DNA of 64,000 nucleotides from Salinisphaera sp. T31B1 (lineage in GTDB: Bacteria > Pseudomonadota > Gammaproteobacteria > Nevskiales > Salinisphaeraceae). The position numbers were made by a program, and so were the translations under genes. Shown piece by piece: positions 25,368-55,746 of this stretch. Below the pieces are notes generated by a model. That model made no database searches. It was not told the DNA's origin and was given only the letters and a program-made list of their open reading frames with translations. The stretch lies in assembly GCF_040361275.1 (NCBI RefSeq), contig NZ_APNH01000001.1, forward strand, positions 1,275,001 through 1,339,000, in the 5' to 3' direction. Positions within the stretch are counted from its first letter, which is position 1. The number at the start of each line of letters is the position of its first letter.

Positions 25368-25433
25368 CCACAACATATAGTCCCGATAGGGGGTTAAAAT
25401 GGCGCTTGACCACAGCATCTAGTGGGGTAGAGT
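25368..25433 (+). promoter_or_regulatory. NrdR-box pair and likely nrdA promoter
   Basis: CCACAACATATAGTCC (25368-25383) and CCACAGCATCTAGTGG (25410-25425) resemble the NrdR consensus acaCwAtATaTwGtgt; the first matches 12 of 16 bases including the core. Their starts are 42 bp apart, four helical turns, so both face the same side. The second overlaps a -35-like TTGACC (25406-25411), followed 16 bp on by TAGAGT (25428-25433) as a possible -10. NrdR represses RNR genes when dATP/ATP is bound. Confidence 0.6.
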
Positions 25434-25534: not shown

Positions 25535-28500
25535 ATGCAACAGTCACAGGTATCCGAGCGCGCCCAGGCGAGCGATTCGGTGCGCGGCCAGTCGTCCGAA
25601 CAGTCGGGCGGCTACGGCGCGAGCATCGAAGCCACCGCGCCGGGCGGCTACAAGGTCATCCGCCGCAACGGCAAGGTCACGCCGTTCGACGGCTCCAAGA
25701 TCGAGCTGGCGGTCACCAAGGCCTTCATCGATGTCGAAGGCCAGCAGGGCGCGGCCTCCAGCCGTATCCGCGAGACGGTCAAGGACATCACCCGCCAGGT
25801 CGTCCAGGGCGTCACCCGCAGCCTGCCCGGCGGCGGCGCGGTGCATATCGAGGATATCCAGGACTACGTCGAGCTCGCGCTCATGCGCTCGGGCGAGCAC
25901 AAGGTCGCGCGTTCCTACGTACTCTATCGTGAAGAGCGGGCCCACGAGCGCGCGGCCAAGCAGGCCGAAAAGGGCGGCGCCGAGACCGCCGGCATGGCCG
26001 ATATCAATGTCGCCTTCAAGGACGGCACCACGCGCGCGCTCGATCGCGACCGGCTGTCGCGCGTCATCGACGAAGCCTGTGCCGGCGTCGACGGTGTGAC
26101 CGCCGAGCAGGTCCTCAAGGACACGCTCAAGAACGCCTTCGACGGCATCTCCGAAGACGAGCTGTCCACCGCGCTGGTGCTCTCCGCGCGTCAGCGCCTG
26201 GAAGCCGAGCCCAACTACGGCACCGTGGCCGCGCGTCTGCTCATGGACAAGCTGCGCCATGAAGCGCTGACCTTCCTCGCCGACGGCCAGGTCGAATACG
26301 CGACCCACGCCGAGATGCGCGAACGCTATCCGTCGTATTTCAAGGACTTCATCGCCCGCGGCGTGCACCATGAACTGCTCGCCCCGGACCTGATGGAATA
26401 CGACCTGGACCGTCTCGGCCAGGCGCTGATCGCCGATCGCGACCTGCAGTTCACCTATCTGGGCCTGCAGACGCTCTACGACCGCTACTTCATCCATCAC
26501 GAATCCAAGCGCTTCGAACTGCCGCAGGCGTTCTACATGCGCGTGGCGATGGGCCTGGCGATCAACGAGATCGAGCGCGAAGAAAAGGCCATCGAGTTCT
26601 ACAAGCTGCTGTCGAGCTTCGACTTCATGTCGTCCACGCCGACGCTGTTCAACTCCGGCACGCTGCGCCCGCAGCTGTCGAGCTGCTACCTGACCACCGT
26701 GGCCGACGACCTGCACGGCATCTACGAAGCGGTCCAGGACAACGCGCTGCTGTCGAAATTCGCCGGCGGCCTCGGCAACGACTGGACGCCGGTGCGTGCC
26801 ATGGGTGCCCATATCAAGGGCACCAACGGCAAGAGCCAGGGCGTGGTCCCGTTCCTGAAAGTGGTCAACGATACGGCCGTGGCCGTGAACCAGGGCGGCA
26901 AGCGCAAGGGCGCGGTCTGTGCCTATCTGGAAACCTGGCACAAGGACATCGAGGAATTCCTCGACCTGCGCAAGAACACCGGCGACGACCGTCGACGGTG
27001 TCATGACATGAACACCGCGAACTGGATCCCGGATCTGTTCGTCAAGCGCGTGCTCAACGACGAGCCGTGGACGCTGTTCTCGCCCAACGACGTGCCGGAC
27101 CTGCACGATCTGACCGGCAAGGCGTTCGAAGAAGCCTATGTCGGCTATGAGGAAAAGGCGGCCCGCGGCGAGATCAAGAACGTCAAGACGCTGTCGGCCG
27201 TGAACCTGTGGCGCAAGATGCTCAGCCTGCTGTTCGAAACGGGCCACCCGTGGTTCACCTTCAAGGACCCGTGCAACCTGCGCAGCCCGCAGCAGCACAA
27301 GGGCGTGGTGCATTCGTCCAACCTGTGCACCGAGATCACGCTCAACACCTCGCCGGGCAAGGAAATCGCGGTCTGCAACCTGGGTTCGGTGAACCTGCCG
27401 CAGCACATTGAAAACGGCGAGTTGAACGTGGCGAAGCTCGAAGCCACCATCAACACCGCCATGCGCATGCTCGATAACGTCATCGAGTACAACTACTACA
27501 GCGTGAAGACCGCGCGGGATTCCAACCTGCGTCACCGTCCGGTCGGCATGGGCCTGATGGGCTTCCAGGATGCGCTGTACAAGTTGAAGCTGCCCTACGA
27601 ATCGGACGAGGCCGTCGAGTTTGCCGATCGCTCCATGGAGCAGATCAGCTATCTCGCCATCAAGGCCTCGACCAACCTGGCCGAAGAGCGCGGCGCCTAC
27701 AGCTCCTTCAAGGGCAGTCTGTGGGATCAGGGCATCCTGCCGATCGACTCGATCAAGATCCTGCGTGAAAACCGCGGCGACGAGTATCTCGATCAGGACG
27801 AGACCGCCACGCTGGATTGGGAAACCCTGCGCGAACGCGTCATGAGCGTGGGCATGCGCAACTCCAACTGCATGGCCATCGCCCCCACCGCGACCATCGC
27901 CAACATCACCGGCGTGAGCCAGTCCATCGAGCCGACGTATCAGAACCTGTACGTCAAATCGAACCTGTCGGGCGAGTTCACCGTGGCCAACCCCTACCTC
28001 GTGGAAGACCTCAAGGCGCTCGGCCTGTGGGACGAGGTCATGGCCAACGATCTGAAGTACTACGACGGCAGCGTGCAGGGCATCGACCGCATTCCGGACG
28101 ACCTGAAAGTGCTCTACAAATGCGCCTTCGAAATCGACCCGCGCTGGCTGGTGGAAGCCGGTTCGCGTCGCCAGAAATGGCTGGATCAGGCCCAGAGCCT
28201 GAACCTGTACATGGCCGAACCGTCGGGCCGCAAGCTGGACGAACTCTACAAGTTCGCCTGGAAGAAAGGCCTGAAGACCACCTACTACCTGCGTTCGACC
28301 AGTGCCACGCATACCGAGAAGTCGACGATCACCGATCATCGCCTGAACGCGGTCGGCAACGGCGGCAAGGGCTCCGGCGGCGGTGCCGGTGCCGGCGGCT
28401 CGGTCACGGGTGGTGCGAGCAACGGCGGCGGTCAGGCGGTCAATGCGGCATCGAACGGTGCGAGTGCGGCCAGCGAAGCGCCCAAGCCGTCGGCCCGGCC

Positions 28501-28594
28501 CACGGCCTCGGCGGCCTCGCCCGCGCCGGCCGGCCAGCCGACCGCACCCATGGCCTGTGCCATCGATGATCCGGACTGCGAGGCCTGCCAGTAA
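25535..28594 (+). CDS. nrdA: Ribonucleotide reductase class I, large subunit (two ATP cones)
   Basis: NrdA reduces ribonucleoside diphosphates, the committed step to dNTPs. The 1019-residue product carries two N-terminal ATP-cone domains (about 39-130, starting YKVIRRNGKVTPFDGSKIE, and about 148-235, around VNVAFKDGTTRALDRDRL-like sequence), which set dATP feedback. The catalytic barrel shows STPTLFNSGTLRPQLSSCYL, NLCTEITLN and the C-terminal redox pair in CAIDDPDCEACQ, joined by an Ala/Gly/Ser-rich linker of about 70 residues. I chose the ATG at 25535 for GGAG five bases upstream. Length and duplicated cones resemble NrdA partners of class Ic NrdB. Confidence 0.95.
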   Translation: MQQSQVSERAQASDSVRGQSSEQSGGYGASIEATAPGGYKVIRRNGKVTPFDGSKIELAVTKAFIDVEGQQGAASSRIRETVKDITRQVVQGVTRSLPGGGAVHIEDIQDYVELALMRSGEHKVARSYVLYREERAHERAAKQAEKGGAETAGMADINVAFKDGTTRALDRDRLSRVIDEACAGVDGVTAEQVLKDTLKNAFDGISEDELSTALVLSARQRLEAEPNYGTVAARLLMDKLRHEALTFLADGQVEYATHAEMRERYPSYFKDFIARGVHHELLAPDLMEYDLDRLGQALIADRDLQFTYLGLQTLYDRYFIHHESKRFELPQAFYMRVAMGLAINEIEREEKAIEFYKLLSSFDFMSSTPTLFNSGTLRPQLSSCYLTTVADDLHGIYEAVQDNALLSKFAGGLGNDWTPVRAMGAHIKGTNGKSQGVVPFLKVVNDTAVAVNQGGKRKGAVCAYLETWHKDIEEFLDLRKNTGDDRRRCHDMNTANWIPDLFVKRVLNDEPWTLFSPNDVPDLHDLTGKAFEEAYVGYEEKAARGEIKNVKTLSAVNLWRKMLSLLFETGHPWFTFKDPCNLRSPQQHKGVVHSSNLCTEITLNTSPGKEIAVCNLGSVNLPQHIENGELNVAKLEATINTAMRMLDNVIEYNYYSVKTARDSNLRHRPVGMGLMGFQDALYKLKLPYESDEAVEFADRSMEQISYLAIKASTNLAEERGAYSSFKGSLWDQGILPIDSIKILRENRGDEYLDQDETATLDWETLRERVMSVGMRNSNCMAIAPTATIANITGVSQSIEPTYQNLYVKSNLSGEFTVANPYLVEDLKALGLWDEVMANDLKYYDGSVQGIDRIPDDLKVLYKCAFEIDPRWLVEAGSRRQKWLDQAQSLNLYMAEPSGRKLDELYKFAWKKGLKTTYYLRSTSATHTEKSTITDHRLNAVGNGGKGSGGGAGAGGSVTGGASNGGGQAVNAASNGASAASEAPKPSARPTASAASPAPAGQPTAPMACAIDDPDCEACQ

Positions 28595-28785: not shown

Positions 28786-29988
28786 ATGCTCGACTTCGAA
28801 GACACCCCGCGCCAGGGCATTCCCAACCGCGACCACGCCACGACGTCGAACCCGAACCCGGCCGGCGACACGCCCGATCCGTTCGCGCTCGACAAGGCCG
28901 AAGCGCCGGCCAGCCACAGCAGCGAACCGGCCGAAGCGGTCACCGGTCTGGAACAGGTCGAGCTCGGCGGCGACCGTGTCTCGGTGGACGACAAGCGCAT
29001 CATCAACTGCCGTGCCGACGTCAACCAGCTCGTGCCGTTCAAGTACACCTGGGCCTGGGAGAAGTACCTCAACGCCTGCGCCAACCACTGGATGCCGCAG
29101 GAAGTGAACATGTCCGCCGACATCGCCATGTGGCAGGACCCGGAGGCGCTGACCGAAGACGAGCGCACCATCCTCAAGCGCGGCTTCGGCTTCTTCGCCT
29201 CCAGCGAATCGCTGGTCGCCAACAACATCGTGCTCGGCGTGTACAAGCACCTCACCAACCCCGAATGCCGCCAGTACCTGCTGCGCCAAGCCTTCGAGGA
29301 AGCCGTGCACGGTCACACCTTCCAGTACATCGTGGAGAGCCTCAACCTCGACGAGGGCGAGATCTTCAACATGTACCGCGAGCTGCCCAGCGTGCACAAC
29401 AAGGCCGCCTGGGCCATGCAGTACACCCAGAGCCTGAACGACCCCAACTTCCAGACCGGCACCCACGAGAACGACCAGATTTTCCTGCGTGACTTGATCG
29501 CCTTCTACGTGATCTTCGAAGGCATCTGGTTCTATGCCGGCTTCGTGCAGTATCTGAGCTTCGGCCGCCGCAACAAGATGACCGGCACCGCCGAGCAGAT
29601 GCAATACATCATGCGCGACGAGTCCATGCACCTGAACTTCGGCATCGACGTGATCAACCAGATCAAGATCGAAAACCCGAACCTCTGGACCGAAGAGTTC
29701 CAGGCCGAAGCCCGTCGCATGATCGACGAAGCCATGCACCTGGAAATCGAATACGCCCACGACACCATGCCCCGCGGCGTGCTCGGCCTGAACGCCAGCA
29801 TGTTCGACGAATACATGAAGTTCATCGCCAACCGCCGCTGTTCACAGATCGGTCTGGCCGAACTCTACCCCGGCGCGGAAAACCCGTTCCCGTGGATGAG
29901 CGAGATGATGGATCTGAAGAAGGAGAAGAACTTCTTTGAGACTCGGGTGATTGAGTATCAGTCGGGTGGGGCGTTGAGCTGGGATTGA
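28786..29988 (+). CDS. nrdB: Ribonucleotide reductase small subunit, class Ic-type (Phe at radical-Tyr site)
   Basis: The 400-residue metal subunit that starts radical chemistry for NrdA. Ligand candidates in order: Glu141 ([12 protein letters not shown]), Glu172 and His175 ([12 protein letters not shown]), Glu245 (FEGIWF), Glu279 and His282 (DESMHLNF). Aligning EEAVH with E. coli E115-x-x-H118 puts Phe179 where the radical Tyr122 should be, and Glu141 replaces Asp84. Both changes, and the [10 protein letters not shown] context, match the class Ic enzymes first described in Chlamydia, which use a Mn/Fe cofactor and no tyrosyl radical. Strong RBS AAGGAAGGA. Confidence 0.94.
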
Positions 29989-30026
29989 TCAGACGGTCGG
30001 GTTAGAGAGTTTTTCTAGGAGATGTC

Positions 30027-31064
30027 ATGAGCCGCCCAGCCGAACGCCTTGTAGGTGAACGCGTTAATGGATGCTGGACGGTAGTTGAGAGACTTGAGAA
30101 AAAGGTAGGTGAATCAGGCGGAAATTTTTCCACGGGTTATATCGTGGAGAAAGACGATGGCGTGAAAGGGTTTCTTAAGGCTATCGATTTCTTGGTTGAC
30201 CCGAATGAAGCTGACCCTGCGAGAAAATTGCAGGAATTAACTGCCGCGTTTAATTTCGAAAGAGACATATTGAGCGCGTGTCGTAATGCTCGACTTAGAA
30301 GAGTCGCAATTGCTATAGACGATGGTCGCTTGGTTCTCCCCGACACTGGAGAGGTCGTCCAATTTCTTATCTTTGAATTAGCTGATGGAAATCTCCACCA
30401 TCGGGTTTTATTTGATGAAAATTTCGAGCTAGCTTGGGCTTTACGCGTCGCCCATAATGTTGCCAGCGGTCTTTGGCAAGTCCATAAAGAAAAAATTGCC
30501 CATCTGGACTTAAAGCCAAGTAACGTACTTTATTATGTTGCGGACGGGTCTAAAATTGCTGATTTCGGCAGGTCATCTAGATTAGGGACACCGGTATTTC
30601 AACATGAACGCTTAACTGTTGCTGGTGATCTAACATACGCGCCGCCGGAACTTTTGTATGGGTACGTGCATCCCGAATGGTTCGTGCGTCGCATCGGCTG
30701 CGATATGTATCTTTTAGGTAGTCTGGTAGTCCATCTGATCTCCGGCGTTGGACTAACGCAACAGATTCTGAGTCGCCTACCCGTAGGTTATTCATTTAAT
30801 GAATGGCCATACGGGTACGAAGCGATCAAGCCGCATATCAGCGATCTGGTTGATGCAATTTTGAATGACGCTTTATCTAATGCGCATCCAACGATCAGAG
30901 GGGACTTGCAATCAGTTTTGGATGAGCTCTGCAACGTGGAGCCAGAAAAGCGTGGGAAGCCGGGCTTAGGCCGCCCACTCGCTGTTCAGTTTTCACTTCA
31001 GCGTTACATAAGTATTTTCGACCGACTCGCTAAAAAATCCGAATTGTTTCTTCGCAATAAATGA
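30027..31064 (+). CDS. Serine/threonine protein kinase-like protein (island)
   Basis: A 345-residue Hanks-type kinase with the key residues present: Lys51 (GFLKAID), helix-C Glu78, hinge IFELADGNL, catalytic loop HLDLKPSNVL with Asp161 and Asn166 (HLD instead of HRD), DFG at 179-181 and a YAPPELL motif at 204-210. No membrane helix or sensor domain is attached. It begins 38 bp after nrdB with RBS AGGAG, and its stop overlaps the next start (ATGA, 31061-31064). The G+C is visibly lower than in nrdB, a sign of transfer. The target is unknown; the coupled TPR protein is the obvious partner. Confidence 0.85.
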   Translation: MSRPAERLVGERVNGCWTVVERLEKKVGESGGNFSTGYIVEKDDGVKGFLKAIDFLVDPNEADPARKLQELTAAFNFERDILSACRNARLRRVAIAIDDGRLVLPDTGEVVQFLIFELADGNLHHRVLFDENFELAWALRVAHNVASGLWQVHKEKIAHLDLKPSNVLYYVADGSKIADFGRSSRLGTPVFQHERLTVAGDLTYAPPELLYGYVHPEWFVRRIGCDMYLLGSLVVHLISGVGLTQQILSRLPVGYSFNEWPYGYEAIKPHISDLVDAILNDALSNAHPTIRGDLQSVLDELCNVEPEKRGKPGLGRPLAVQFSLQRYISIFDRLAKKSELFLRNK

Positions 31065-32662
31065 GCATAAATCGAGGCGACAGTGAACGCCGTTTACTTC
31101 CTAGATGGCGATCTAAGGAAGCAATGGAGCTATCGAAAGAGCTCACTCCAGCTCGAAGCGCGGGTCCGCAAGTAGTATTATCGGTTGCTGAGCATAATTC
31201 GAAGTTAGATGCGTGGCGCAATGAGCCGACCCAATCGCACGCGATAGATGTCGTCGGTAGCGGGTTATTTTCTCGGGATTTTCACGTTCCAGAGGAAGTG
31301 GTTCACCAGCTAATCGACCTTCGTGAAACGAATACAGCCGTCTCGAACTTGCTGCGGGCCTTTTTGGACGGTTCGTTATTAACAAATGGCCAAGCATTAG
31401 CATCCAAAACCATCGGGGATGCGCGGGCACAAATAAAAAACTACAGGAAGGCAACTCGAAACTATCCCAGGAATGCCTTTATTTGGGCTGAACTTGCTCG
31501 GGCGCACATTTCAGTCGGTGCGTCTGAACAGGCTGAGCGCGAGATCCTAACGGCTTTGATGTTGGCTCCAGAAGATAGGTTTATAACTCGATCGGCAGTT
31601 CGATTTTTCGTTCACGTAGGCGATTTTGGAAGAGCAAAACATGTTTTAGCTAACCATCGTCTGATTAAGAAAGACCCGTGGTTGGTTGCTCCTGAGTTGG
31701 CAGTGTCCCAACTAATGCAAAGAACCTCTAAACTGGTTGGTTTGGCAAAGAAAATAGTTTCGAGTGGAAATTATTCGTCTTTCCATGTATCGGAACTGGA
31801 AAGCGCCCTCGCATCTGTTGAGCTGGAGTCAGGTGCCAGAAAAAAATCCAGAAAACATTTTGCTAAAAGTCTCGTTGATCCTACAGAAAACAGCGTCGCC
31901 CAGGCGATATGGGGCCGGTCCGAAGGTCTGGATTTAGACTTTGATCTTCGGCTGTTAGACTTACCAGGCGCTTACGAGGCTAAAACGCTGGAATATGCTG
32001 AAGAGATCAAGTGGGATAAAGCGCTCGAGCAATGTGAGCTTTGGCAAAATGACGAGGTTTTCTCAAGCAGGCCGGCCGAGATTGGTTCATATATCGCCGC
32101 GGTCGCGTTGGGCGATCCTTTAATTAGCGAAAAGTTTTCTAGACGAGGGTTGAGCTCGAATCCGCGATCGATAACGTTAAAAAATAATTTGACGGTTTGC
32201 CTATGTCAGCAGGGTCGGCTAAATGAAGCTTTGGATGTTTTCCAAAGTATAAATTTTAAAGATCTGAAATCGCAAGATCGAAACTCATTACTGGCTACTA
32301 CGGGGCTTATAAATTTCAGGCTAGGTAATTTGGCAGCGGGGCGCGAAAATTACGAGCTTGCAATTCGGCAGTTGAGGGCGCGGAATGATAAACGAGGCGT
32401 CGCATTGGCTATAGTTCATCTTGCTCAAGAGGAGAAGCATTGTGGCTCCGGGTTGGGCGAGAAGATACTAGAAGGCGCTGATAAACAGATTAGAGCCTCA
32501 GATGAGCCCGAAATTTTGGCTATGCATAATCGACTAGTGAACGCCAATTTAGGTGAGTTTTCTACGGACTCTACGGACTCTACGGACCCTACGGACCCTG
32601 TGACTGTTGAACTCCGGGATCATAACTCTATCCTACTGCCGCCGTCGGAGACGCCTGAATAG
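31061..32662 (+). CDS. TPR-repeat protein coupled to the kinase
   Basis: A 533-residue protein with TPR-like helical pairs: NYRKATRNYPRNAFIWAELARAHISVGASEQAEREILTALMLAPED (about 128-173) and further units near 365-440 (LTVCLCQQGRLNEALDVF, GLINFRLGNLAAGRENYELAIRQL). The first 100 residues are unassigned. Its ATG overlaps the kinase stop, so it is made with the kinase, probably as scaffold, substrate or sensor. The C-terminus carries a TDSTDSTDPTDP tract from a 9-bp tandem repeat. AT-rich codon use as in the kinase. Confidence 0.7.
   Translation: MSINRGDSERRLLPRWRSKEAMELSKELTPARSAGPQVVLSVAEHNSKLDAWRNEPTQSHAIDVVGSGLFSRDFHVPEEVVHQLIDLRETNTAVSNLLRAFLDGSLLTNGQALASKTIGDARAQIKNYRKATRNYPRNAFIWAELARAHISVGASEQAEREILTALMLAPEDRFITRSAVRFFVHVGDFGRAKHVLANHRLIKKDPWLVAPELAVSQLMQRTSKLVGLAKKIVSSGNYSSFHVSELESALASVELESGARKKSRKHFAKSLVDPTENSVAQAIWGRSEGLDLDFDLRLLDLPGAYEAKTLEYAEEIKWDKALEQCELWQNDEVFSSRPAEIGSYIAAVALGDPLISEKFSRRGLSSNPRSITLKNNLTVCLCQQGRLNEALDVFQSINFKDLKSQDRNSLLATTGLINFRLGNLAAGRENYELAIRQLRARNDKRGVALAIVHLAQEEKHCGSGLGEKILEGADKQIRASDEPEILAMHNRLVNANLGEFSTDSTDSTDPTDPVTVELRDHNSILLPPSETPE
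32562..32597 (+). repeat. Four tandem copies of a 9-bp unit (CTACGGACT/C)
   Basis: CTACGGACT twice and CTACGGACC twice, back to back, inside the 3' end of the TPR gene. The unit is three codons long, so copy changes keep the frame and only alter the length of a Thr-Asp-Ser/Pro tail. Confidence 0.9.
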
Positions 32663-32730
32663 ACCACGCTTGCCGATCCGGGTCGACGCCGCCCGTACGG
32701 CTTGGATCCGGCGACAGTGGCCAATAGCAG

Positions 32731-32764
32731 GATCCGGGGACAGTATATTTAATTCGCGAGTTGG
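32731..32764. repeat. REP-like element, copy A
   Basis: A 34-bp sequence containing CAGTATATTTAATTCGCGAG, 68 bp after the TPR gene. It matches copy B (37267-37300) at 32 of 34 positions. A partial copy of its left end (GGATCCGGCGACAGTGG, from 32704) precedes it. Confidence 0.8.
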
Positions 32765-32890
32765 TATGCGCGACACTCGCTCACAAGCGGCCCGCTCAGC
32801 TCAGCTCAATCAGTGGATGTAGTCCAGCGTAGAGCCAGGCTACTATCGCCACACATTACTCGCGGCCGGTATAGCTCTGTACCAGAAGCC

Positions 32891-33811
32891 TTACTTCTTA
32901 CCGGTCTTCTCAACGAGATCTTGTCGGCACTTCTGCTCGATTTGATGCGTTATACGTTTTATAGCCGCGTGGTCGAGAGGCTGTGCCGTAGGCGTACGTA
33001 CTAAGCTTTTCGCCTCGCGGGGCGTAAATACGCGGACTGGTTGTTGATTTGAGCCTTTGACCCGATCTACTTTCCAGCCCGGGATCGCGATGGCAGGCGT
33101 TGCTACCGTCGGCTCTCCCGTCGCTGAACTAAGCCATTCGCTCAGCCATTGCGCTTGCCGTTTGGCTTGTTCGAGGCATTTACGATCCTGCCAGCCTGCG
33201 AAGTTGATTGTCCGGCCGTCGAATCTGGCGGTGTAGTCATTTTCTGCCGTATCGCTGCGCTTTTGCTTTGAGCGCGCTTTGGTTTCTACGGCGAATACGC
33301 CTGTTGGGCCGATCACAACATGATCGATATTAAACCGGCCGCACGGTAGGTCGTGGAACACTTCGAAGCCGTCGCGCATGAGCTTGTTGAGCTCTTCGGC
33401 CGTTGCGACTTCGCCCTCCCAGCCGAGGCGGTAGGCCTGTAACTCACGAAAGATCCGCCGTAATCTAAAGCCTGAGTAGATTGAGGCGGCCAGTACCGTG
33501 ATGATCGCGAGAGCGACGAGAAAATCAGAGACGGGCTCGTTCCTGAAATAAGGAATGCCTAACGCTGTCGCCAGCGTAATAAACCCGAATAGTGGACCTA
33601 ACGCCAAGCAGTACATGGCATCCATGCCATGTGAGCGACGCTTCTCCGAAAGCTCGTGGCCGGGCGGGCGAAGCATACCGCGGGTAAGCGGGTGGCGCCG
33701 GCCGGTTCGTTTATCCTGGTATTCATTCCAACGAAGTTGGACTATCACCATAAAGAACGGCGGTGAAATGATCGCCAGTGCGCCTGCAAGCACTCCAAAC
33801 TGAGTAATCAT
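32891..33811 (-). CDS. Membrane-anchored NERD (nuclease-related) domain protein
   Basis: A 306-residue protein: three hydrophobic helices (about 5-25, 66-86, 95-115), then a NERD domain with GWEGE (130-134), the acidic core FNIDHVVIGPTGVFAVETKAR (Asp163, Glu176, Lys178) of the PD-(D/E)XK type, and a downstream QxxWL helix (QAKRQAQWLSEWL). NERD proteins are predicted nucleases, often found with kinases or helicases in mobile regions. It points away from the DUF2075 gene (divergent) and converges on the TPR gene. Substrate unknown. Confidence 0.85.
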   Translation of the reverse strand: MITQFGVLAGALAIISPPFFMVIVQLRWNEYQDKRTGRRHPLTRGMLRPPGHELSEKRRSHGMDAMYCLALGPLFGFITLATALGIPYFRNEPVSDFLVALAIITVLAASIYSGFRLRRIFRELQAYRLGWEGEVATAEELNKLMRDGFEVFHDLPCGRFNIDHVVIGPTGVFAVETKARSKQKRSDTAENDYTARFDGRTINFAGWQDRKCLEQAKRQAQWLSEWLSSATGEPTVATPAIAIPGWKVDRVKGSNQQPVRVFTPREAKSLVRTPTAQPLDHAAIKRITHQIEQKCRQDLVEKTGKK

Positions 33812-34036
33812 TCGAACCCCCGCTATGTCGTTATGATTATCGGGCGAGCGGGCAAAGTGCCTCTATTCGCCTCGATTTGACGATCGCTAGCCCTTTTTCT
33901 GTTATCGGCAGGTTGGCTGCAGAGCAACACTTGGGCGGTATCCAAAATTTGCCAGCTATGACCTGTTAGGTTTGAAGCGTTTGCGAGTGATGGTTGGCGA
34001 TGTATTGTGCTGGGGGATCCTGACTTGGAAGCGTCC

Positions 34037-36037
34037 ATGCCGTATGCGGCAAGCCGGATACCTGCTTATTACGGTGCGAGCATTCGCGAGTTTTGTTCGG
34101 CGCCACCGAACGCTGTGCTCGGCCAGCTGGCATCGGCTGGCATAGACCTCGAGGAAACGCAGAAGAACGCTTATCTCGAAGAGATTGGCATTCTCAGAAC
34201 GCTGCTAGAAGCGCGCGAAGGCGCGATTTATCTTGAGTTCGCGGTGCCGCGACTGGCAAGCCGTATCGACGCGGTCGTCATCATCGATACCGCCTTATTC
34301 GTACTGGAATTTAAATGCGGCGCCGATCGATTTCATCGTGGCGATATTAACCAGACGTGGGATTACGGGCTGGACCTTAAGAATTTCCACGCCGGCAGCC
34401 ACACGGCGGATATTTTTCCTGTTCTCGTCGCGACGAAGGCGGCCCATAGCGACCAAACATGGCAGCCGACGCACGCTGACGGCGTACGACCTCCCGCATG
34501 CAGTGGCGTTAATGGTTTAGCTGATTTGATCGATGAGGCGCTCGCTAGCCGAGGCGTTGGTTCAATCGATACACGCCGTTGGGCTATCTCTGCGTATCAA
34601 CCGACGCCGACCATTGTTGAAGCGGCACAAGCGTTATACGCCCAGCATTCCGTAGATGCGATCGCGCGTAATGATGCCGGCGCCAAGAACCTTGCTGCGA
34701 CCTCTGGACGAGTCGATCAAATAATTCTGGAGTCGCAGGCGAATCGAACGAAATCGATTGTGTTCGTTACCGGCGTGCCCGGTGCGGGCAAAACGCTCGT
34801 GGGGCTCGACGTGGCAACAAGGCGTCGAGATATCGACGCGCCTACCCACGCGGTATTCCTTTCCGGCAATGGCCCGCTCGTGATGGTCTTGCAAGAAGCA
34901 CTCACCCGCGATGAGGTAGCTCGGGCTAAGGCGCGTGGCGAGCCGGTTCGTAAGGGGGCGGTGAAACAGAAGGTGAAGCCGTTTATACAAAACGTGCATC
35001 ACTTTCGTGATGAAGGCGTTCGTGATCGTGAAACGCCGCCGCATGATCACGTCGTGATCTTCGATGAGGCCCAGCGGGCATGGAACCAAGATCGTACGTC
35101 GAGCTTTATGGCGCGGAGAAAAGGGATTGCGAACTTTGATCAATCCGAGCCTGAGTTTCTAATCGACTATATGGACCGCCACTCAGATTGGGCGGTGATC
35201 GTATGTCTAGTCGGCGGCGGGCAGGAAATTAATACGGGCGAGGACGGGATCGCCGGCTGGCTCGAATCGCTTTATAACCGCTTTCCGCACTGGCAGATCT
35301 ATATTTCGCCAGAGCTGACCGATCGCGAATACGCAGCCGGCGGCGCACTTGAAAACCTCGCCAAACAGCGCGAGCTGCTTACCGTAGAAAGCCTGCATCT
35401 AGCGGTGTCGATGCGATCGTTTCGCGCCGAGAATCTCTCGGCGTTCGTCAAAGCGTTACTCGACTCTGAGCCCGGCACGGCGCACGAGATCGCTGCCACC
35501 CTTATTGAACGGTATCCGATTGTCGTGACGCGCGATCTCGACGCCGCAAAACGTTGGGTTCGCGAAAAGGCGCGGGGGAATGAGCGATTCGGCTTGGTCG
35601 CTTCGTCGCAGGCCCATCGAATGAAACCGCATGCCGTCGATATTCGGGTGAATATTGATCCGGTTCATTGGTTTCTGAACGACGCGCGCGATACGCGTTC
35701 GAGCTACTACTTGGAAGACGTGGCAACCGAGTTCCATATCCAAGGTCTGGAGTTGGATTGGGTGTGTATGACCTGGGACGCGGACCTCCGCCGTGTCAAC
35801 GATGATTGGAGCTATCATGGCTTTCGCGGCTCACGGTGGACCAAAACCCATAAGCGAGAGCGTCAGCGTTATTTGTTGAACGCCTACCGCGTGTTACTCA
35901 CACGCGCTCGCCAAGGTATGGCGATCTTTGTGCCGCCAGGCGATGTCGACGATCCAACGCGGGAGCCCACTTACTACGACGAAACGTACCGCTATTTGCG
36001 GGCGGCCGGTATTCCAACTTTGTACGAAACGGGGTAG
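34037..36037 (+). CDS. DUF2075 ATPase with N-terminal nuclease-like domain
   Basis: A 666-residue protein. The N-terminal 120 residues show a PD-(D/E)XK-like core, RIDAVVIIDTALFVLEFKCG (Asp78, Glu91, Lys93). A DUF2075 P-loop domain follows: Walker A GVPGAGKT (246-253), Walker B VVIFDEAQ (339-346), and a C-terminal superfamily I helicase-like end (YYLEDVATEFHIQGLELDWVCM and NAYRVLLTRARQGMAIFVP, motif VI-like). I chose the ATG at 34037, with GGAAG at five bases, over a GTG at 34007. Nuclease-helicase fusions of this kind are common in defence regions; role inferred. Confidence 0.85.
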   Translation: MPYAASRIPAYYGASIREFCSAPPNAVLGQLASAGIDLEETQKNAYLEEIGILRTLLEAREGAIYLEFAVPRLASRIDAVVIIDTALFVLEFKCGADRFHRGDINQTWDYGLDLKNFHAGSHTADIFPVLVATKAAHSDQTWQPTHADGVRPPACSGVNGLADLIDEALASRGVGSIDTRRWAISAYQPTPTIVEAAQALYAQHSVDAIARNDAGAKNLAATSGRVDQIILESQANRTKSIVFVTGVPGAGKTLVGLDVATRRRDIDAPTHAVFLSGNGPLVMVLQEALTRDEVARAKARGEPVRKGAVKQKVKPFIQNVHHFRDEGVRDRETPPHDHVVIFDEAQRAWNQDRTSSFMARRKGIANFDQSEPEFLIDYMDRHSDWAVIVCLVGGGQEINTGEDGIAGWLESLYNRFPHWQIYISPELTDREYAAGGALENLAKQRELLTVESLHLAVSMRSFRAENLSAFVKALLDSEPGTAHEIAATLIERYPIVVTRDLDAAKRWVREKARGNERFGLVASSQAHRMKPHAVDIRVNIDPVHWFLNDARDTRSSYYLEDVATEFHIQGLELDWVCMTWDADLRRVNDDWSYHGFRGSRWTKTHKRERQRYLLNAYRVLLTRARQGMAIFVPPGDVDDPTREPTYYDETYRYLRAAGIPTLYETG

Positions 36038-36348
36038 ATACTTCTCTCAGCAGAGGTGTATACGCTGATCGCGTAAGACAACCAACAGGTAGCTGCTAAA
36101 TAATAGTTAAATTTGGTGCGAGACAGCGGTAGCCGTATAGCTTAAAAGCCGCCCGCGATAACCCATGAAGATGCCCATCGCTAGAAATTCTCGAGTCGAT
36201 CGGTGCTGATTCTCGATCAGGGAGCAGTATATTTGACTCGAGAGCCAACCTCGTTGCACAGAAAGTTTGTAAGTAGATCTGGCGTCAGGGGTTGTATTGT
36301 GTGTGATGCGGCGTTGATTCATTGCTCTCGTGAAAAGGAATAGTCGGG
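36038..36348. other. AT-rich gap with degraded REP-like copy C
   Basis: No gene seen. 36215-36248 (GATCAGGGAGCAGTATATTT and on) is a diverged match to the REP-like copies A and B. The remainder may hold the promoter of the HEPN gene. Confidence 0.5.
36215..36248. repeat. REP-like element, diverged copy C
   Basis: Shares GATC-GGG, CAGTATATTT and TCG-GAG blocks with copies A and B but differs at several positions. It lies between the DUF2075 and HEPN genes. Confidence 0.55.
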
Positions 36349-37206
36349 TTGAAAGTGGACTTGGAGAAGATCGCAATTATCGAGTACCACGGCACTTCTG
36401 GCTCAACCCAGTCGTGTTTGAAGGCGCTTGCTCGACTTATCCACTATGGTGATCGAATTCGGTTCGCTTACTTAGTAACACGGGGGGATAAACACGGTTT
36501 TTTGTTGGAAATAAATGAATCTGATCGAATTGCCATAGCCGTGGGTTTTCGTTCAGGGTATTCCGGAGAAGGGCCGCGCGGCTTGGTGGCGGCCTTTAGG
36601 CTATTCGAGTTCTTTGGCGTCGAAATCGAAGAGGTTGAAGTATCGAGTGCACTAATGTTTCGTTTTGAGCATACCGCTCTCACATATAGCGACATATCTT
36701 CCATTGAATGCGCATCCCCTATTTGGCCCCGCCGAATTTACGACTACATACTAGCGATCCAAGGCGATTACGAAGAATTGCCTATCGACTTCGCAAGGCT
36801 GTTCCCGTCACGCCTTCCTTTGGCTGGCGTAGATAAGCGGATTGAAGACCTGGCATTGCGTTTTAGTGTTGATCCAGACGGGGCTTTGATAGAGGGCTAC
36901 CGACGGTTAGAAGCGCAAGTTAAAGCCCGTATAGGTGGAGGAGAAAAGTCAGGTGTCGGTTTGTTTTCCGCTGTATTTCAAGGCGTTCAATCTAGCCTCT
37001 ATTGGGGGTGCGAATTGCCCACTGCGGAACATATCGCTAGAGCCAAGCTTTTTGAGGCTGTTTTCGGTATGTATAGAAACCCGAGAATGCATAACCCGAG
37101 GGCTATTGACGATGGCCCTCGCCCAGCTGATGTTACTGAGTTCCTCGCGCTTAACGAACTTTTTCTACTCGAATCGTCTGCAATTCTGAGATCGTCCGAC
37201 GAATGA
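36349..37206 (+). CDS. HEPN-type protein with C-terminal TIGR02391-like domain
   Basis: A 285-residue protein. The C-terminal 90 residues (GVGLFSAVFQGVQSSLYW ... KLFEAVFGMYRNPRMHNP ... LNELFLLESSA) fit the TIGR02391/HEPN pattern; RNPRMH (243-248) is the Rx4H motif of HEPN ribonucleases. The first 190 residues, with a GFRSGYSGEGPRGLVAAF block, are unassigned and may sense a trigger. The start is uncertain: TTG at 36349 or GTG at 36355, with AAGGAA upstream. It is a lone plus-strand gene between REP-like copies C and B. RNA cleavage as the effector activity is an inference from the motif. Confidence 0.75.
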   Translation: MKVDLEKIAIIEYHGTSGSTQSCLKALARLIHYGDRIRFAYLVTRGDKHGFLLEINESDRIAIAVGFRSGYSGEGPRGLVAAFRLFEFFGVEIEEVEVSSALMFRFEHTALTYSDISSIECASPIWPRRIYDYILAIQGDYEELPIDFARLFPSRLPLAGVDKRIEDLALRFSVDPDGALIEGYRRLEAQVKARIGGGEKSGVGLFSAVFQGVQSSLYWGCELPTAEHIARAKLFEAVFGMYRNPRMHNPRAIDDGPRPADVTEFLALNELFLLESSAILRSSDE

Positions 37207-37266
37207 AAGCGCGATCCAGAATCCGTCGACTGCATATTTGAATTCTGATCCGTTCTGATCCGTTCT

Positions 37267-37300
37267 GATCCGGGGGCGGTATATTTAATTCGCGAGTTGG
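37267..37300. repeat. REP-like element, copy B
   Basis: Contains CGGTATATTTAATTCGCGAG; 32 of 34 positions equal copy A, 4.5 kb away. It is preceded by two and a half copies of CTGATCCGTT, whose GATCCG runs into the element. Confidence 0.8.
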
Positions 37301-37578
37301 CGCGCGCCTGCCCACTCAGGAGAGGCCGCGGCTCGTAATAAACAATCCAATCGCCGACCGCGGCTTCGACTTGCCGACGGTAAGTGGCCGGGAAGTGGTA
37401 GTGGCTTTCTATAAGGTCGTCGTAGATCGAACTTTCAGAAGCGGTAAATACTGCGTTCGACATTGGTGCGATCGATTAATCCTGAGCGAGAATGCAACGA
37501 CGATGGCTCAGGCGACAGCGTTTGAAAAGTCTTGCGTCGCTTGGAGCCGCACGCTAAGTCGGGTCTTGTAATGTGCAA

Positions 37579-37598
37579 GGCGCCGCGGGTGCGGCGCC
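37579..37598. terminator. GC-rich hairpin near the end of the NmrA gene
   Basis: GGCGCCGC (37579-37586), loop GGGT, GCGGCGCC (37591-37598): perfect 8-bp stem. Only TCGTCGTTT follows on the plus strand, so it would be a weak terminator; it lies 94 bp past the stop of the minus-strand gene at 37693. Confidence 0.4.
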
Positions 37599-37692
37599 TC
37601 GTCGTTTAACCAAGCGAACTGACTTGGCCAAGGGCGGGCGGTGGTTGGCGCCCGGTACGCGTTCGATTAGTCGGGGTGGCCGAAGCGGCTGA

Positions 37693-38562
37693 TCAATTCG
37701 GGACCACCTGTTGGTCGGCGAAGTCGCGGTAGGAATGCAGCGGCCGGCCCAGCAGCGTGGTGAGTCGCTCGATGTCGCCGGCTTCCGGGGCCATGCCGTC
37801 GCTGACATAGCGCTCGGCCATCAGACGCATTTCGTAGGCCATCCATTTGGGCATGACGTGGGCCATGTTCTGCTCGAAGCCGGTGGGGTCGTCGCCGCCA
37901 TAGGCGATGGAACGGCCGAGCACGTCGGACCAGATCGCGGCGATGTCCGACCCGGTGAGCGTGTCGGGGCCGACCAGGTTGATGGTATCGCTTGCCAGCG
38001 TGGCCGGTGACTGGTCGCGGCGGATCAGTTCGAGGGCGGCGACTTCGGCGATATCGCGCACATCGATCATGGCCACGCCCTTGCTGCCGATCGGCATCGG
38101 GTATACGCCGTGCTCACGGATGACATCCGTGACCATGATTTCGTTATCGATGAAATACGCGGGGCGCAGAATCGTGGCGCTGAAGCCCATCTGCTCGATC
38201 ATGCGTTCGGCGCCGGATTTGACCGCGAAGTGGGGCACGTTCACGAAACGCTCGGCGTGAATCACCGACAGGTACACGACGCGCTGGACGCCGGCCTCGC
38301 GGGCGATGTTGAGGGCGATCAGGGCCTGGGTGAATTCGTCGCCGGCCACCGCATTCAACAGGAACAAGGTGGATACGCCGGTGAAGGCGCGCCGCATCGC
38401 ATCGATATCGAGCATCTCGCCCTGCACGACATCGACGCCGGCCGGGAATGTCGCTTTCGACGGGTCGCGTACGAGAACGCGGACATCGGTCTGACGTGCG
38501 ACCAGCTGGTCGACAACCTGACGGCCGACGCGGCCGGTAGCGCCTGTAATGAGGATGGTCAT
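37693..38562 (-). CDS. NmrA-like NAD(P)-binding protein
   Basis: A 289-residue atypical short-chain dehydrogenase: the GATGRVG nucleotide loop at residues 7-13, RVLVRDPSKA, VVQGEMLD, then VVYLSVIHAE and an AVKSGAERMIEQMGFSATILRPAYFIDN segment in place of the usual YxxxK. NmrA/HSCARG-like proteins act as redox sensors or quinone reductases. It is divergent from a LysR gene with a shared 101-bp control region, which suggests control by it. G+C is back to the host level. Confidence 0.8.
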   Translation of the reverse strand: MTILITGATGRVGRQVVDQLVARQTDVRVLVRDPSKATFPAGVDVVQGEMLDIDAMRRAFTGVSTLFLLNAVAGDEFTQALIALNIAREAGVQRVVYLSVIHAERFVNVPHFAVKSGAERMIEQMGFSATILRPAYFIDNEIMVTDVIREHGVYPMPIGSKGVAMIDVRDIAEVAALELIRRDQSPATLASDTINLVGPDTLTGSDIAAIWSDVLGRSIAYGGDDPTGFEQNMAHVMPKWMAYEMRLMAERYVSDGMAPEAGDIERLTTLLGRPLHSYRDFADQQVVPN

Positions 38563-39557: not shown

Positions 39558-39658
39558 GCCGCCCATGCTTGCCCGCCGGTTTCCGTGCGTTGGGGTCAGG
39601 TCTTGCATCGTGCATAACCGCGTTAGAATCAACTCAAAACCGCAACAGCAAGCCAGTT

Positions 39659-40507
39659 ATGGCCCGACCGCTCCGCCTCGAATTCGCCGGCGCGCTCTAT
39701 CACGTCACCGCCCGCGGCGATCGCCAGGAAGCGATCTATGAGGACGATGAAGACAGGCACGCGTTTCTGGATGTTCTCGCGCGTGTCGCCGATCGCTTCA
39801 ACTGGTTGGTGCACGCCTACTGCGAGATGACGAACCACTATCACCTGCTGATCGAAACGCCGGACGGCAATTTGTCTAAGGGCATGCGGCAATTGAACGG
39901 GGTGTATACCCAGTACAGCAATCGCCGGCACGGCCGCGTGGGGCATCTGTTCCAGGAACGCTACAAGGCGATTCTCGTGCAGAAGGAATCGTATCTCTTG
40001 GAAGTGGCTCGTTATGTCGTGCTCAACCCGGTACGAGCGCAGATGGTGCGCAGTGCCGGCGATTGGCCGTGGAGCAGTTACCGCGCAACGTCCGGGCGTG
40101 CGGGCGTGCCAGGTTTTCTCACCACCGATTGGGTTCTGTCGGCGTTCGGCGATCGGTTGAAAGAATCACAGCTCGCCTACCGGCGGTTCGTGACCGAGGG
40201 TCGCGGCCAGCCCGCGCCGTGGGCAGCGCTCGCCAATCAAGTGCTGCTGGGCGACGATGCGTTCGTCGATCGCATGCGCGCGAAGATCGATCAATCCAAC
40301 CGCTCGCTTGCCGAAGTGCCGCGTGCCCAGCGGGCCGGGCGGGCCAGGCCGTTGGCCGACTATGCTGCCCAGAGCAATACGCGTAATGAAGCAATCGTTG
40401 CGGCCTTCGGCTCCGGCGGTTACAGCATGGCCGAGATCGGGGCCTATTTCGGCGTGCATTATTCGACGGTCAGCCGGGTCGTGCGGACCGCCGAGTGCGG
40501 TTCGTGA
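39659..40507 (+). mobile_element. REP-associated tyrosine transposase (RAYT, Y1 HUH family)
   Basis: A 282-residue single-strand transposase of the IS200/IS605-like Y1 class. It shows LEFAGALYHVTARGD, the HUH pair in NHYHLLIE (His60, His62), and a candidate nucleophile Tyr in YTQYSNRR (83-90). A C-terminal HTH (SMAEIGAYFGVHYSTVSRVVR) resembles the DnaA-type end common in RAYTs. A GGGGTCAGG block with TGCATCGTGCA lies 40-65 bp upstream, as usual for such genes. It stands alone with no second transposition gene, which fits a domesticated RAYT that mobilises REP sequences. Confidence 0.85.
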
Positions 40508-51170: not shown

Positions 51171-52538
51171 TTGAACGAGGTCCGACTACTCGCCGTGACC
51201 GCGATTCTTGGCTACGGCTTTCCAGAAGAATCGCTGCGTGCGGGACTAGCGCGCAAGCCGCATATGATCGGCGTCGACGGCGGCAGCGTCGATCCCGGCC
51301 CATACTTCCTAGGAGCCGGCAAGGCATTCTGCTCCAACCTGGCCATGCGCCGTGACCTGCGTCTCATGCTGAACGCCGGCGTTGAGGCGGGAATTCCGGT
51401 CGCCGTGTCGACTGCGGGAGGCGCCGGCGGTTCGCCGCACGTCGCGAATATCGTGGACATGGTTCGCCAGATCGCCCAGGAGGACGGGCTGCATTTCAAG
51501 CTTGCCATCATTCACTCGGAGCAGGCGCAAGCGGATGTCATCGAGTGGGTTGAAGCAGGGCGAGTCAACGCCCTGGGCAGCCGGCCACCGTTGACCACCG
51601 ATACCGTGGAGCGGGCCACTCGTATCGTCGGTGCCATGGGGCCAGAGCCTTACATGGACGCCTTGGATGCCGGTGCCGATGTCATCATCTCGGGTCGGAG
51701 CACCGATCCCGCGCCGTGGGTCGCCATGGTCCGTCGGGCCGGCCTGCCGGAAGCCCAGGCATGGTATGCCGGCAAGATGCTGGAATGCGGCGCCGAGCCG
51801 GCACTGCCCAAGAAAGAGGATTGCCTGTTCGTCACCGTGGGCGCCGACTACGTCGAATGCGAGCCGACCAGCCAGGAGCGTCGCTGTACGCCGCTATCGG
51901 TCGCTAATTTCAGCCTCCACGAAAACGCGAGTCCGGTCCATCATTTCGAGCCGGGTGGCATGCTGGACACCACCGAATGTGTCTTCGAGGCCGTAAGCGA
52001 TCGCGCCGTGCGGATCACCGGCATGAAATGGCTGCCGGCTTCGCAATACACCGTCAAACTTGAAGGCGTCGAACAGACCGGATTCAGAGCGCTGGCGATC
52101 TGCGGTACCCGAGACCCGGTGCTCATCGATACGATCGAGCCCTATCTGGAGCGTTCACGCGAAATCGTGGCCGAGAAGACCGCTGCCTTCGGTGTGTCAC
52201 CCGAGAGTTATGGCTTGTCGTTCCGGGTCTATGGCCGCAACGGCGTGATGGGCGCCCGCGAACCCGTCACCGAGATTACGAGCCACGAGCTTGGTTTCGT
52301 GATCGAAGTCGTGGCCTCGACGCAGGACGAGGCGAATGCGGTTGTGGCCATCGCCCGCACCACACTGCTGCATTCCGATTTTCCGGGGCGTCTCTGCAAG
52401 GAGGGAAATATGGCTATTCCGTTCTCTCCCTCGGATATCGAGTTAGGCCCTCACTATCGGTTCAGCGTGTACCACATAGTGGACACCGACAGTCCGACCG
52501 CTATGTTTCCAATTGAATACGAGCAGGTGGGAGGCTAA
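51171..52538 (+). CDS. AtuA-like protein (DUF1446), acyclic terpene utilisation family
   Basis: A 455-residue protein of the AtuA/DUF1446 family. It has the N-terminal GVDGGSVDPGPYFLGAGK, GIPVAVSTAGGAGGSPHVANIVDMVRQIA and DVIISGRSTDPAPWVAM signatures. The family was named from citronellol breakdown, but members with TRAP transporters occur in other carboxylate pathways; the reaction is not established. I chose the TTG at 51171, which has AGGAG six to seven bases before it and starts at the conserved NEVRLLAVTAILGYG; an in-frame frame opening at 51102 overlaps the promoter. The next gene starts two bases after its stop. Confidence 0.82.
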   Translation: MNEVRLLAVTAILGYGFPEESLRAGLARKPHMIGVDGGSVDPGPYFLGAGKAFCSNLAMRRDLRLMLNAGVEAGIPVAVSTAGGAGGSPHVANIVDMVRQIAQEDGLHFKLAIIHSEQAQADVIEWVEAGRVNALGSRPPLTTDTVERATRIVGAMGPEPYMDALDAGADVIISGRSTDPAPWVAMVRRAGLPEAQAWYAGKMLECGAEPALPKKEDCLFVTVGADYVECEPTSQERRCTPLSVANFSLHENASPVHHFEPGGMLDTTECVFEAVSDRAVRITGMKWLPASQYTVKLEGVEQTGFRALAICGTRDPVLIDTIEPYLERSREIVAEKTAAFGVSPESYGLSFRVYGRNGVMGAREPVTEITSHELGFVIEVVASTQDEANAVVAIARTTLLHSDFPGRLCKEGNMAIPFSPSDIELGPHYRFSVYHIVDTDSPTAMFPIEYEQVGG

Positions 52539-52540
52539 CG

Positions 52541-52852
52541 ATGGCTTTGATTCGTGATATCGCCAAGGTCTGCAAAAGCAAGAATGCGGGACCGTTCCAT
52601 CTCACGATCGATGTCGTGTTCGACGATGTCGATACCTTCAAGCGCGTCGCCGACAGCGACGTGCTCAACGCAGCGCTGTTCGCCAGGCTCTACGACGTTG
52701 CCGAGTCAGACGTGTTGTTTACGCCCTACGCACCTGCATTAGCGTTCAAGGCAACGATTCCTCGCGCGGTGAGCGCAGGCGATATCGGTGATACCGATGT
52801 CTATGGGGCGCAGCAGCATGCACCGTTGCTGGATATCGATATCCCGATTTGA
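52541..52852 (+). CDS. DUF4387 protein, partner of the AtuA-like protein
   Basis: A 103-residue protein with the DUF4387 pattern LIRDIAKVCKSKNAGPFHLTIDVVF and a C-terminal DTDVYGAQQHAPLL. In many genomes it directly follows, or is fused to, an AtuA/DUF1446 protein, so the two likely work as one enzyme. RBS GGTGGGAGG lies in the end of the upstream gene. Confidence 0.82.
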   Translation: MALIRDIAKVCKSKNAGPFHLTIDVVFDDVDTFKRVADSDVLNAALFARLYDVAESDVLFTPYAPALAFKATIPRAVSAGDIGDTDVYGAQQHAPLLDIDIPI

Positions 52853-52900
52853 TCGGGATCCATAACCAATTAATCAAAAGAGACAGCCGGGGAGATAATC

Positions 52901-53911
52901 ATGAAACGTCTTAGTATCCGATGGGTCCGTTGCGGACTGCTGATCGCCGTATCCGCGGCCGCCGTGTTCTCTGGCAACGCGGCTGCGAAGAGTCTGAATT
53001 TACGGCTGGGCCATGAGCTGCCTATCGACTCACCGATTCATCGGGCGTTGGAGACCTTCGCTGAAAACGTGAACGAAGCGTCGGACGGCGACATCAGCGT
53101 GAAGGTATATGGCGGCGCTACGATCGGCTCCGACCGACAGCTCAGCGAACAGGTTCGTCTCGGGGCGATCGACATGGCGGCGCTGGGTGTCAATACGCAG
53201 GCACCTCTTGGCGACGATTTTTCTATCGATGAGGTGCCATATGTCTGGGACAGCTATGCCCAGATGGCTGCGGCCTATAACGGCGACCTTGGAGAGATTC
53301 TCGGCAAGAAGTTGACCGCGCTTGGCGTGCGTCCTATCGGCTATTTCCCATTCGGCTTTCGTCAGCTCACCAATAACGTGCGGCCGGTCGAAAAGCCCTC
53401 GGATATCAAAGGGCTCAAGCTGCGTGTGGCTGAAGTGCCGATCCGTATCGATGCCTTCAAGGCGCTTGGCGCGCGTCCGGTACCCATCGCCTTTCCGGAG
53501 CTATTCACGGCCCTGCAGCAGGGTACGGTAGACGGCCAAGAAAACCCGCTGTTCATTATCAAAGGATCGCGCTTTTTCGAGGTGCAGAAGTATCTGACGC
53601 TCACGAACCATATTGCGTCGACTTATTTTCTCGGAATGAATTCGTCGCGGTTCAAATCGTTGACACAGGCGCAGCGCGACATTTTGCTTGCGCAGGCGGC
53701 GAAGATCGGTCCGCAGGTAACCGCGGAACTTGAGTCGAACCGAAAAGAAATTCTGGCGTTTTTGCGAGACCAAGGCATGCAGATCGTCACGGATATCGAT
53801 CGCGATGCGATGCGCGCCGAACTCAAACCGGTGTATAGAAAATACAAAAAAGAGTTCTCGCCGGACGTATGGGCTGCATTGAAGAAATATTCGTCTCTCG
53901 GCGACGACTGA
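52901..53911 (+). CDS. dctP: TRAP transporter substrate-binding protein (DctP)
   Basis: A 336-residue periplasmic protein with a signal peptide ending near AAAKS (residue 31). It has the DctP core: LRLGHELPIDSPIHRALETFAENVNEAS, VYGGATIGSDRQLSEQVRLGAIDMA, and the conserved arginine in LKLRVAEVPIRIDAFKALGARPVPIAFPELFTALQQGTVDGQENP, which binds the substrate carboxylate. The ligand cannot be predicted from the sequence alone. Confidence 0.93.
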   Translation: MKRLSIRWVRCGLLIAVSAAAVFSGNAAAKSLNLRLGHELPIDSPIHRALETFAENVNEASDGDISVKVYGGATIGSDRQLSEQVRLGAIDMAALGVNTQAPLGDDFSIDEVPYVWDSYAQMAAAYNGDLGEILGKKLTALGVRPIGYFPFGFRQLTNNVRPVEKPSDIKGLKLRVAEVPIRIDAFKALGARPVPIAFPELFTALQQGTVDGQENPLFIIKGSRFFEVQKYLTLTNHIASTYFLGMNSSRFKSLTQAQRDILLAQAAKIGPQVTAELESNRKEILAFLRDQGMQIVTDIDRDAMRAELKPVYRKYKKEFSPDVWAALKKYSSLGDD

Positions 53912-53918
53912 GATCACC

Positions 53919-54431: not shown

Positions 54432-54463
54432 CCCAACCGATGCTTTCGATTCGAGATTAGCTG

Positions 54464-55738: not shown

Positions 55739-55746
55739 GCGACCGA

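Follow-up and report, generated by a model that had tools for sequence, protein, structure and literature searches.

The closest described parallels to the locus reported here are the core defence hotspots cDHS1 and cDHS2 of Pseudomonas aeruginosa, which are described as lying between conserved flanks, being always occupied, carrying varied defence systems, belonging to no one type of mobile element, and having a tRNA or ssrA gene as anchor (PMC10250203). A comparable site is found in Salinisphaera sp. T31B1, within a 64,000-nucleotide stretch of chromosome (contig NZ_APNH01000001.1, positions 1,275,001 to 1,339,000; "the window"), where five open reading frames (ORFs) of foreign composition stand between nrdB and an NmrA-like gene. 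This chromosomal defence hotspot has the nrdB 3' end as its anchor, and its cargo differs among congeners and includes known defence systems. It shares the other features listed for cDHS1 and cDHS2 and differs in three respects: its anchor lies where the nrdAB operon ends, the first cargo gene runs in the direction of nrdB and often starts at most about 60 nt from its end, and the variation is seen across the species of a genus, not inside one species. Both hotspots and the module families found here are of already-known kinds. We consider it probable that the five-gene island is a mosaic, pieced together from three conflict modules that were each acquired independently: a kinase-TPR pair (PDC-M71), a NERD gene with a divergent PDC-S41 gene, and a Ymh/HEPN gene without a match in PADLOC.

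DNA behind nrdB was obtained for 13 congeners and three further relatives of the same family (handles G and L below denote genomes and their fetched stretches); the sample holds one genome per species, and genus counts (n = 14) include the window's own genome. The anchor gene itself (28786-29988, plus strand) gave a match in each of the 41 relatives searched. G+C content over the 1.5 kb that follow nrdB is 0.42-0.553 in all 14 genus members, compared with 0.585-0.669 in a control flank after prpD (nine genomes). The empty site that the original prediction, made from the sequence alone, had proposed to look for did not turn up among these 14 genomes, all of which carry low-G+C DNA at this position. 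In all 13 congeners, the blastn homology shared with the window breaks off no more than 9 nt from the stop codon of nrdB, a sharp left border. In the relative with the closest nrdB (G006, 96%), a non-homologous replacement of 7.2 kb holds none of the five genes, and homology with the window restarts at 37493. The NERD and PDC-S41 genes are shared with G003 (86% DNA identity), where other genes separate them from nrdB.

A PADLOC scan of 20 proteins from relatives, 19 of them from 11 congeners, gave matches at E-values of at most 1e-5 in eight of the 11 (G001, G003, G004, G005, G006, G007, G012 and G013). The systems represented include CBASS, SIR2-STAND, PD-Lambda-5, methyltransferases and others. 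Since G010 has the same CBASS families as G007, recognisable defence genes are counted at the nrdB site in 10 of 14 genus genomes, the window and G010 included. Beyond the genus, G014, of a sister genus, carries just a BCCT transporter gene about 0.8 kb behind nrdB, and a member of another genus (G015) has ORC-CDC6-like ATPase, PRTase-CE and HAD-like genes there on the opposite strand (L047:1897-8646). For an order-level sample, 20 further members were fetched and ten low-G+C or nrdB-proximal proteins from nine genomes were scanned; five of the nine gave PADLOC matches at the same threshold, including SIR2-HerA (G017) and HEC-04 (G038). The end of nrdB can serve as a single anchor for reading off likely defence systems across the genus, as well as for part of the order beyond it.

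Several observations count against this picture. With one genome per species, exchange within a species is not seen. Only four of eight relatives have a prpD control flank with homology to the window, so that flank varies too. No defence match was obtained for G008, and only weak or ATPase-type matches for G002 and G011; G009, scanned against Pfam only, also gave none (the contigs fetched for G009 and G010 stop 3-4 kb in). Low-G+C genes with no or weak family matches occupy the nrdB site in G008 (L036:1749-3459), G009 (L044:1919-2485), G011 (L041:1610-3244) and G023 (L101:660-1643). As some nrdB cassettes match no known family, such genes are good candidates for undescribed defence systems.

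The insert in the window spans 29989-37492, directly 3' of nrdB, and is alien DNA by composition. In 1-kb steps its G+C content is 0.47-0.57 across 30-37 kb, while the rest of the window lies mostly at 0.59-0.73. The G+C content of third codon positions (GC3) is 0.43-0.61 for the five island genes versus 0.74-0.89 for eight neighbouring genes. The original prediction of five alien, low-G+C genes behind nrdB is thereby borne out, with the same positions for the ORFs, and its kinase, TPR, NERD and DUF2075 domain calls all exceed their Pfam cut-offs. The outcome named as telling against that prediction, one conserved set in all relatives with codon use like the host's, did not occur: the PDC-M71B gene is present in only one of the 14 genus genomes, PDC-S41 in two, the HEPN gene in two and NERD in seven. 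GC3 within the island falls into three levels that follow the modules, with 0.43 and 0.45 for the kinase and TPR genes, 0.60 and 0.61 for the NERD and PDC-S41 (DUF2075) genes, and 0.47 for the HEPN gene.

The first module begins with a Hanks-type protein kinase (30027-31064, plus strand; Pfam Pkinase) that matches PDC-M71A at 3e-93 over residues 3-342, followed by a TPR protein (31061-32662, plus strand; Pfam TPR_19) that matches PDC-M71B at 3e-113 over residues 1-490. Both components of this PADLOC candidate are thus present nearly in full, in the same order and overlapping, the TPR start codon overlapping the kinase stop by 4 nt; what differs here is the position directly behind nrdB, across a gap free of terminators. 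Kinase residues K51, E78, H159-x-D161, K163, N166 and D179-x-G181 are conserved in five of five homologues, and from knowledge of the family we take the enzyme to be active. In six of six TPR homologues (the window, genome G294, a contig from a metagenome-assembled genome (MAG), and plasmids of Rhizobium, Deinococcus and Arthrobacter), a kinase gene lies immediately upstream; in the MAG contig the kinase is only a fragment and the TPR gene is split over two frames. The TPR protein would sense infection or act as a scaffold, and the kinase would phosphorylate host or phage proteins and so stop growth, as in abortive infection.

A TPR search over 369 genomes drawn from across the class gave matches in 26, window included; besides the window only G294 (3.7e-52) looks family-like, with all others at 2.8e-6 or weaker. 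A scan of genome contigs matched a single MAG contig, no TPR relative was found in viral contigs, and a kinase search of phages gave one weak match. The Arthrobacter plasmid stretch with the pair also has a PDDEXK nuclease gene; the Deinococcus pair has a Pycsar effector-family gene, a cyclase-domain gene and transposases nearby (L092:11654-13982); and a Y1-transposase-like ORF lies immediately downstream of the distant pair in G294 (L058:3276-4250). Close to where the TPR gene of the window ends (32561-32596), four copies of the 9-bp unit TCTACGGAC encode an STD/TDP repeat, possibly a length-variable tail.

The original prediction had left open whether the island is one system or three modules. 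In a one-system reading the kinase-TPR pair would sense infection and switch on the nucleases and the HEPN effector, and the five genes are indeed adjacent in one island; kinase-containing multi-gene systems exist, and the kinase also weakly matches mad6 of MADS. Against this stand the separate assortment of the genes across the 14 genomes, the three composition classes, the opposite strands with repeats between modules, and the three plasmids (Rhizobium, Deinococcus and Arthrobacter), whose gene table, itself incomplete, lists none of the NERD, DUF2075 and HEPN genes within 7 kb of the pair. A single five-gene system is rejected on assortment and composition and appears very improbable; of the two options originally put forward, independent modules are favoured.

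In the second module, the NERD gene (32891-33811, minus strand; Pfam NERD, 1.1e-17) is divergent from the PDC-S41 gene (34007-36037, plus strand), which encodes a PD-(D/E)XK-like N-terminus joined to a DUF2075/SLFN-g3 helicase. The PDC-S41 protein matches its PADLOC model at 1.6e-272, the alignment spanning residues 20-672, and exceeds the cut-off of the Pfam SLFN-g3 helicase (DUF2075) model. The full-length match is what it shares with the catalogued candidate; the divergent NERD gene sets it apart, an arrangement common to one other genus member, G003, so that PDC-S41 is accompanied by NERD in both genus genomes that hold it. The motifs R86xD88, E101xK103 and Q116xxxY120, Walker A and B, and TRxR are conserved in four of four PDC-S41 homologues, two of which are 93% identical. 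The NERD protein has no PADLOC match; its residues ID163 and E176-T-K178 are conserved in five of five homologues, and its N-terminal part is hydrophobic as judged by eye. No Protein Data Bank (PDB) relative was found for the PDC-S41 protein, nor for the NERD, HEPN and PDC-S41 profiles. From family knowledge we take PDC-S41 to be a RecB-like nuclease plus helicase and NERD to be a nuclease. The former, with its Schlafen-group-3 helicase, would cut and unwind invading nucleic acid; the latter, presumably in the membrane, would be a nuclease in its own right that has been at the locus for longer. On an Exiguobacterium plasmid, a PDC-S41 homologue adjoins a McrC-family gene and an AAA ATPase gene.

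The third module is a single gene (36349-37206, plus strand) for a Ymh/HEPN RNase-like protein with an uncharacterised N-terminal domain. The HEPN RNase motif that had been predicted is present, as RNPRMH at residues 243-248 within the Ymh-type C-terminal domain, and the RNPRxH pattern (R-x4-H) is conserved in three of three homologues; the family assignment is less clear-cut, with 27.5 bits against a cut-off of 25 for PF09509 (Hypoth_Ymh) and 18.8 bits, below the cut-off of 39.45, for TIGR02391. The sole PADLOC match is at 0.018. A search over the class-wide draw of 369 genomes recovered the window only, and no relatives were found in viral contigs or phage records. From family knowledge the protein is presumably an RNase, and it would act as an RNase effector with its trigger in the N-terminal domain. 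A single-sequence structure model, with a predicted local distance difference test (pLDDT) score of 37, was discarded and does not confirm the fold. A 154-residue antisense ORF over this gene (36999-37463) was judged spurious.

The original prediction recognised no named system here. That holds for the HEPN module; PADLOC, which it had suggested running, already catalogues the other two modules as candidates, PDC-M71A/B and PDC-S41. The nrdB hotspot, the inter-module repeats and the probable coupling to nrdAB lay beyond its view. Its defence-island reading gains support from the matches to hidden Markov models of candidate defence genes, from the differing cargo, and from the known systems at the same site in relatives. 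PDC entries are described as candidates from guilt-by-embedding, mostly awaiting validation (PMC12988326), and two other PDC candidates tested in a native host are reported as inactive (PMC12409345), which tells against the defence label. The PDC labels are predictions, and the anti-phage role of every module is that of a candidate. The five genes might instead be ordinary accessory genes for stress signalling or RNA and DNA turnover, the label being a database artefact; besides the candidate status of the models, the kinase, TPR, NERD and HEPN domains are widespread. We regard this as unlikely given the full-length PADLOC matches of 3e-93 to 1.6e-272, set against none among ten window proteins outside the island at E-values of at most 1e-3, and given validated types such as CBASS and PD-Lambda-5 at the same site in relatives.

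The spacers between modules hold a further feature, a 41-bp repeat starting with GATCCGGGGACAGTATATTTAATTCGCGAGTTGG. Its plus-strand copies occupy inter-module gaps or the right end of the island: copy 1 between the TPR and NERD genes (32731-32771), a degenerate copy 2 (61%) between the PDC-S41 and HEPN genes (36215-36255), and copy 3 (88%) at the right end (37267-37307), into which a tandem array, (TTCTGATCCG)x3, runs (37243-37272, plus strand). The 18-mer GTATATTTAATTCGCGAG, with up to two mismatches allowed, occurs twice in the 4.36-Mb genome, both times in the island. The nrdB loci of G003 and G006 hold five related copies in their intergenic spaces, and a shorter motif is found in five of 14 genus genomes. 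In G003, G006 and G009 this motif precedes short Y1 transposase genes by about 30 nt, the likeness to Y1 (IS200-like)-associated repeats; the difference is that the copies here are orphans between modules, without an adjacent Y1 gene, and the two Y1 genes found in this genome are both of a longer type, neither with an adjacent repeat copy. We infer from the sequences that the island repeats may be orphan ends of Y1 elements. They may perhaps act as recombination seams, although their clustering was spotted post hoc and the motif also occurs elsewhere in the genomes of G003, G004, G006 and G009, so that it is not specific to cassette borders.

Related repeats inside the island and near its right end, together with a Y1 transposase gene at 39656-40507, might suggest a single transposon or integrative element that carried all five genes into place behind nrdB. 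This seems highly doubtful: no tRNA gene was found within the 64-kb window, a Pfam scan found no integrase or transposase among the island genes, no repeat copy was found at the nrdB end, and composition is unequal between the modules. The Y1 (IS200-like) gene, whose Pfam-identified product has about 283 residues, lies outside the island, and its orthologues at the same locus adjoin other cargo; they are 73-91% identical and stand near the nrdB site in G002, G005, G007, G008 and G011. In the mosaic reading, cassettes would be exchanged by homologous recombination both in conserved flanks and in cassettes held in common, and transposon-derived repeats would now and then provide the seams. The right flank (37493-38562) comprises the start of G006 homology at 37493 and the NmrA-like gene (37693-38562, minus strand; Pfam).

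In the window, the way the kinase gene joins nrdB is suggestive of shared transcription. The kinase ATG begins at the 39th base past the nrdB stop codon, and the 38-nt gap (29989-30026, plus strand) has AGGAG ahead of the ATG and no hairpin; no sigma-70-like or terminator-like site was found in it, the promoter scan being a weak test. Behind nrdB in nine of 14 genus members, a CGGGC...GCCCG hairpin is retained at 14-16 nt (40 nt in G005), eight of the nine being accepted by a stricter terminator scan; it is missing in the window, G001, G004, G008 and G013. In 14 of 14, the first cargo gene has the orientation of nrdB when long ORFs without nrdB overlap are counted (minus-strand ORFs over the nrdB end, L035 1590-2030 and L044 1534-1770, were excluded). 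With the earliest plausible start codon used as the cargo start, so that true starts are possibly further in, the hairpin precedes the cargo by 9-63 nt in six genomes (G002, G003, G005, G006, G011, G012), by 114-127 nt in G007 and G010, and by 324 nt in G009. Because the kinase gene of the window follows nrdB by 38 nt with a ribosome site and with the hairpin gone, the kinase-TPR genes probably form the downstream end of the nrdAB transcript.

Upstream of nrdA (25535-28594, plus strand, with the start codon picked by eye, the mechanical ORF having its start at 25295), two NrdR-box-like sites score 12-13 of 16 (25368-25383) and 12 of 16 (25410-25425) against an assumed consensus. Paired sites of this kind are found in 12 of 12 genomes (the window's own and 11 relatives; G002 and G006, with short contigs, were left out), 42 bp apart in 11 and 41 bp in G001, at 122-126 and 164-168 bp before the nrdA start codon, and are the top-scoring sites of the 480 bp tested per genome. 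The genome encodes NrdR (TIGR00244, 198.6 bits). In the window, a strict pattern with up to three mismatches found no site, and a looser score of at least 12 is reached by 14 stretch-orientations, four of them at the two sites; since the boxes are weak and other stretches score alike, the NrdR claim rests on conservation across genomes. Offsets of 41-42 bp correspond to spacers of 25-26 bp. The sites resemble described NrdR-regulated nrdAB operons in being paired 16-bp boxes (reported as palindromes in PMC4409342) with a spacer inside the 24-27 bp range that, along with 14-17 bp, is reported for NrdR binding (PMC12051234). They differ in the defence-like genes that run co-directionally behind nrdB, for which no description appears among the literature matches listed.

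A speculative reading, less likely than not, is that in this lineage nrdAB has come to lend its promoter to interchangeable defence and toxin-antitoxin cassettes, with ribonucleotide reductase (RNR) serving as an infection sensor for immunity. NrdR, reading the ATP/dATP balance, would repress nrdAB plus the genes wired behind it; phage replication would drain deoxynucleoside triphosphates (dNTPs), release NrdR, and let the defence gene be expressed along with RNR. In genomes that keep the nrdB hairpin, the cassette would be gated by read-through, which phage antitermination might raise. If true, an NrdR-controlled promoter would tie immunity to the dNTP pool, a resource used by DNA phages, and offer a simple means to keep costly defence genes silent until infection. 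The coupling of a defence cassette to RNR and NrdR would appear to be new. Among the matches listed (preprints and most subscription papers lay outside the scope of the search), no report joins nrdB with a defence island or hotspot, no paper names PDC-M71 or PDC-S41 as a defence candidate, and no prior report links DUF2075 with phage, terminators with defence islands, or a presumed genus name with defence terms; a term search of the main text of PMC10121019, on E. coli defence islands, gave no occurrence of "nrd".

The RNR operon seems to admit toxin-antitoxin genes as well. In G013 a toxin ORF begins 6 nt behind nrdB, with an antitoxin-like ORF downstream (L042:13969-14521), and in G006 one begins 9 nt behind nrdA, with an antitoxin-like ORF downstream and before nrdB (L004:922-1439). 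These toxin ORFs match the PDB toxin 7vd7 (7.8e-21 and 5.8e-17, respectively) and are presumably BrnT-like; the names BrnT and BrnA are our assumption. Related antitoxin-like ORFs occur also in G004, G007 and G011. Elsewhere in the window, a second, shallower dip in G+C content (0.56-0.61) lies at 52001-57000, where the ORFs resemble a TRAP transporter region.

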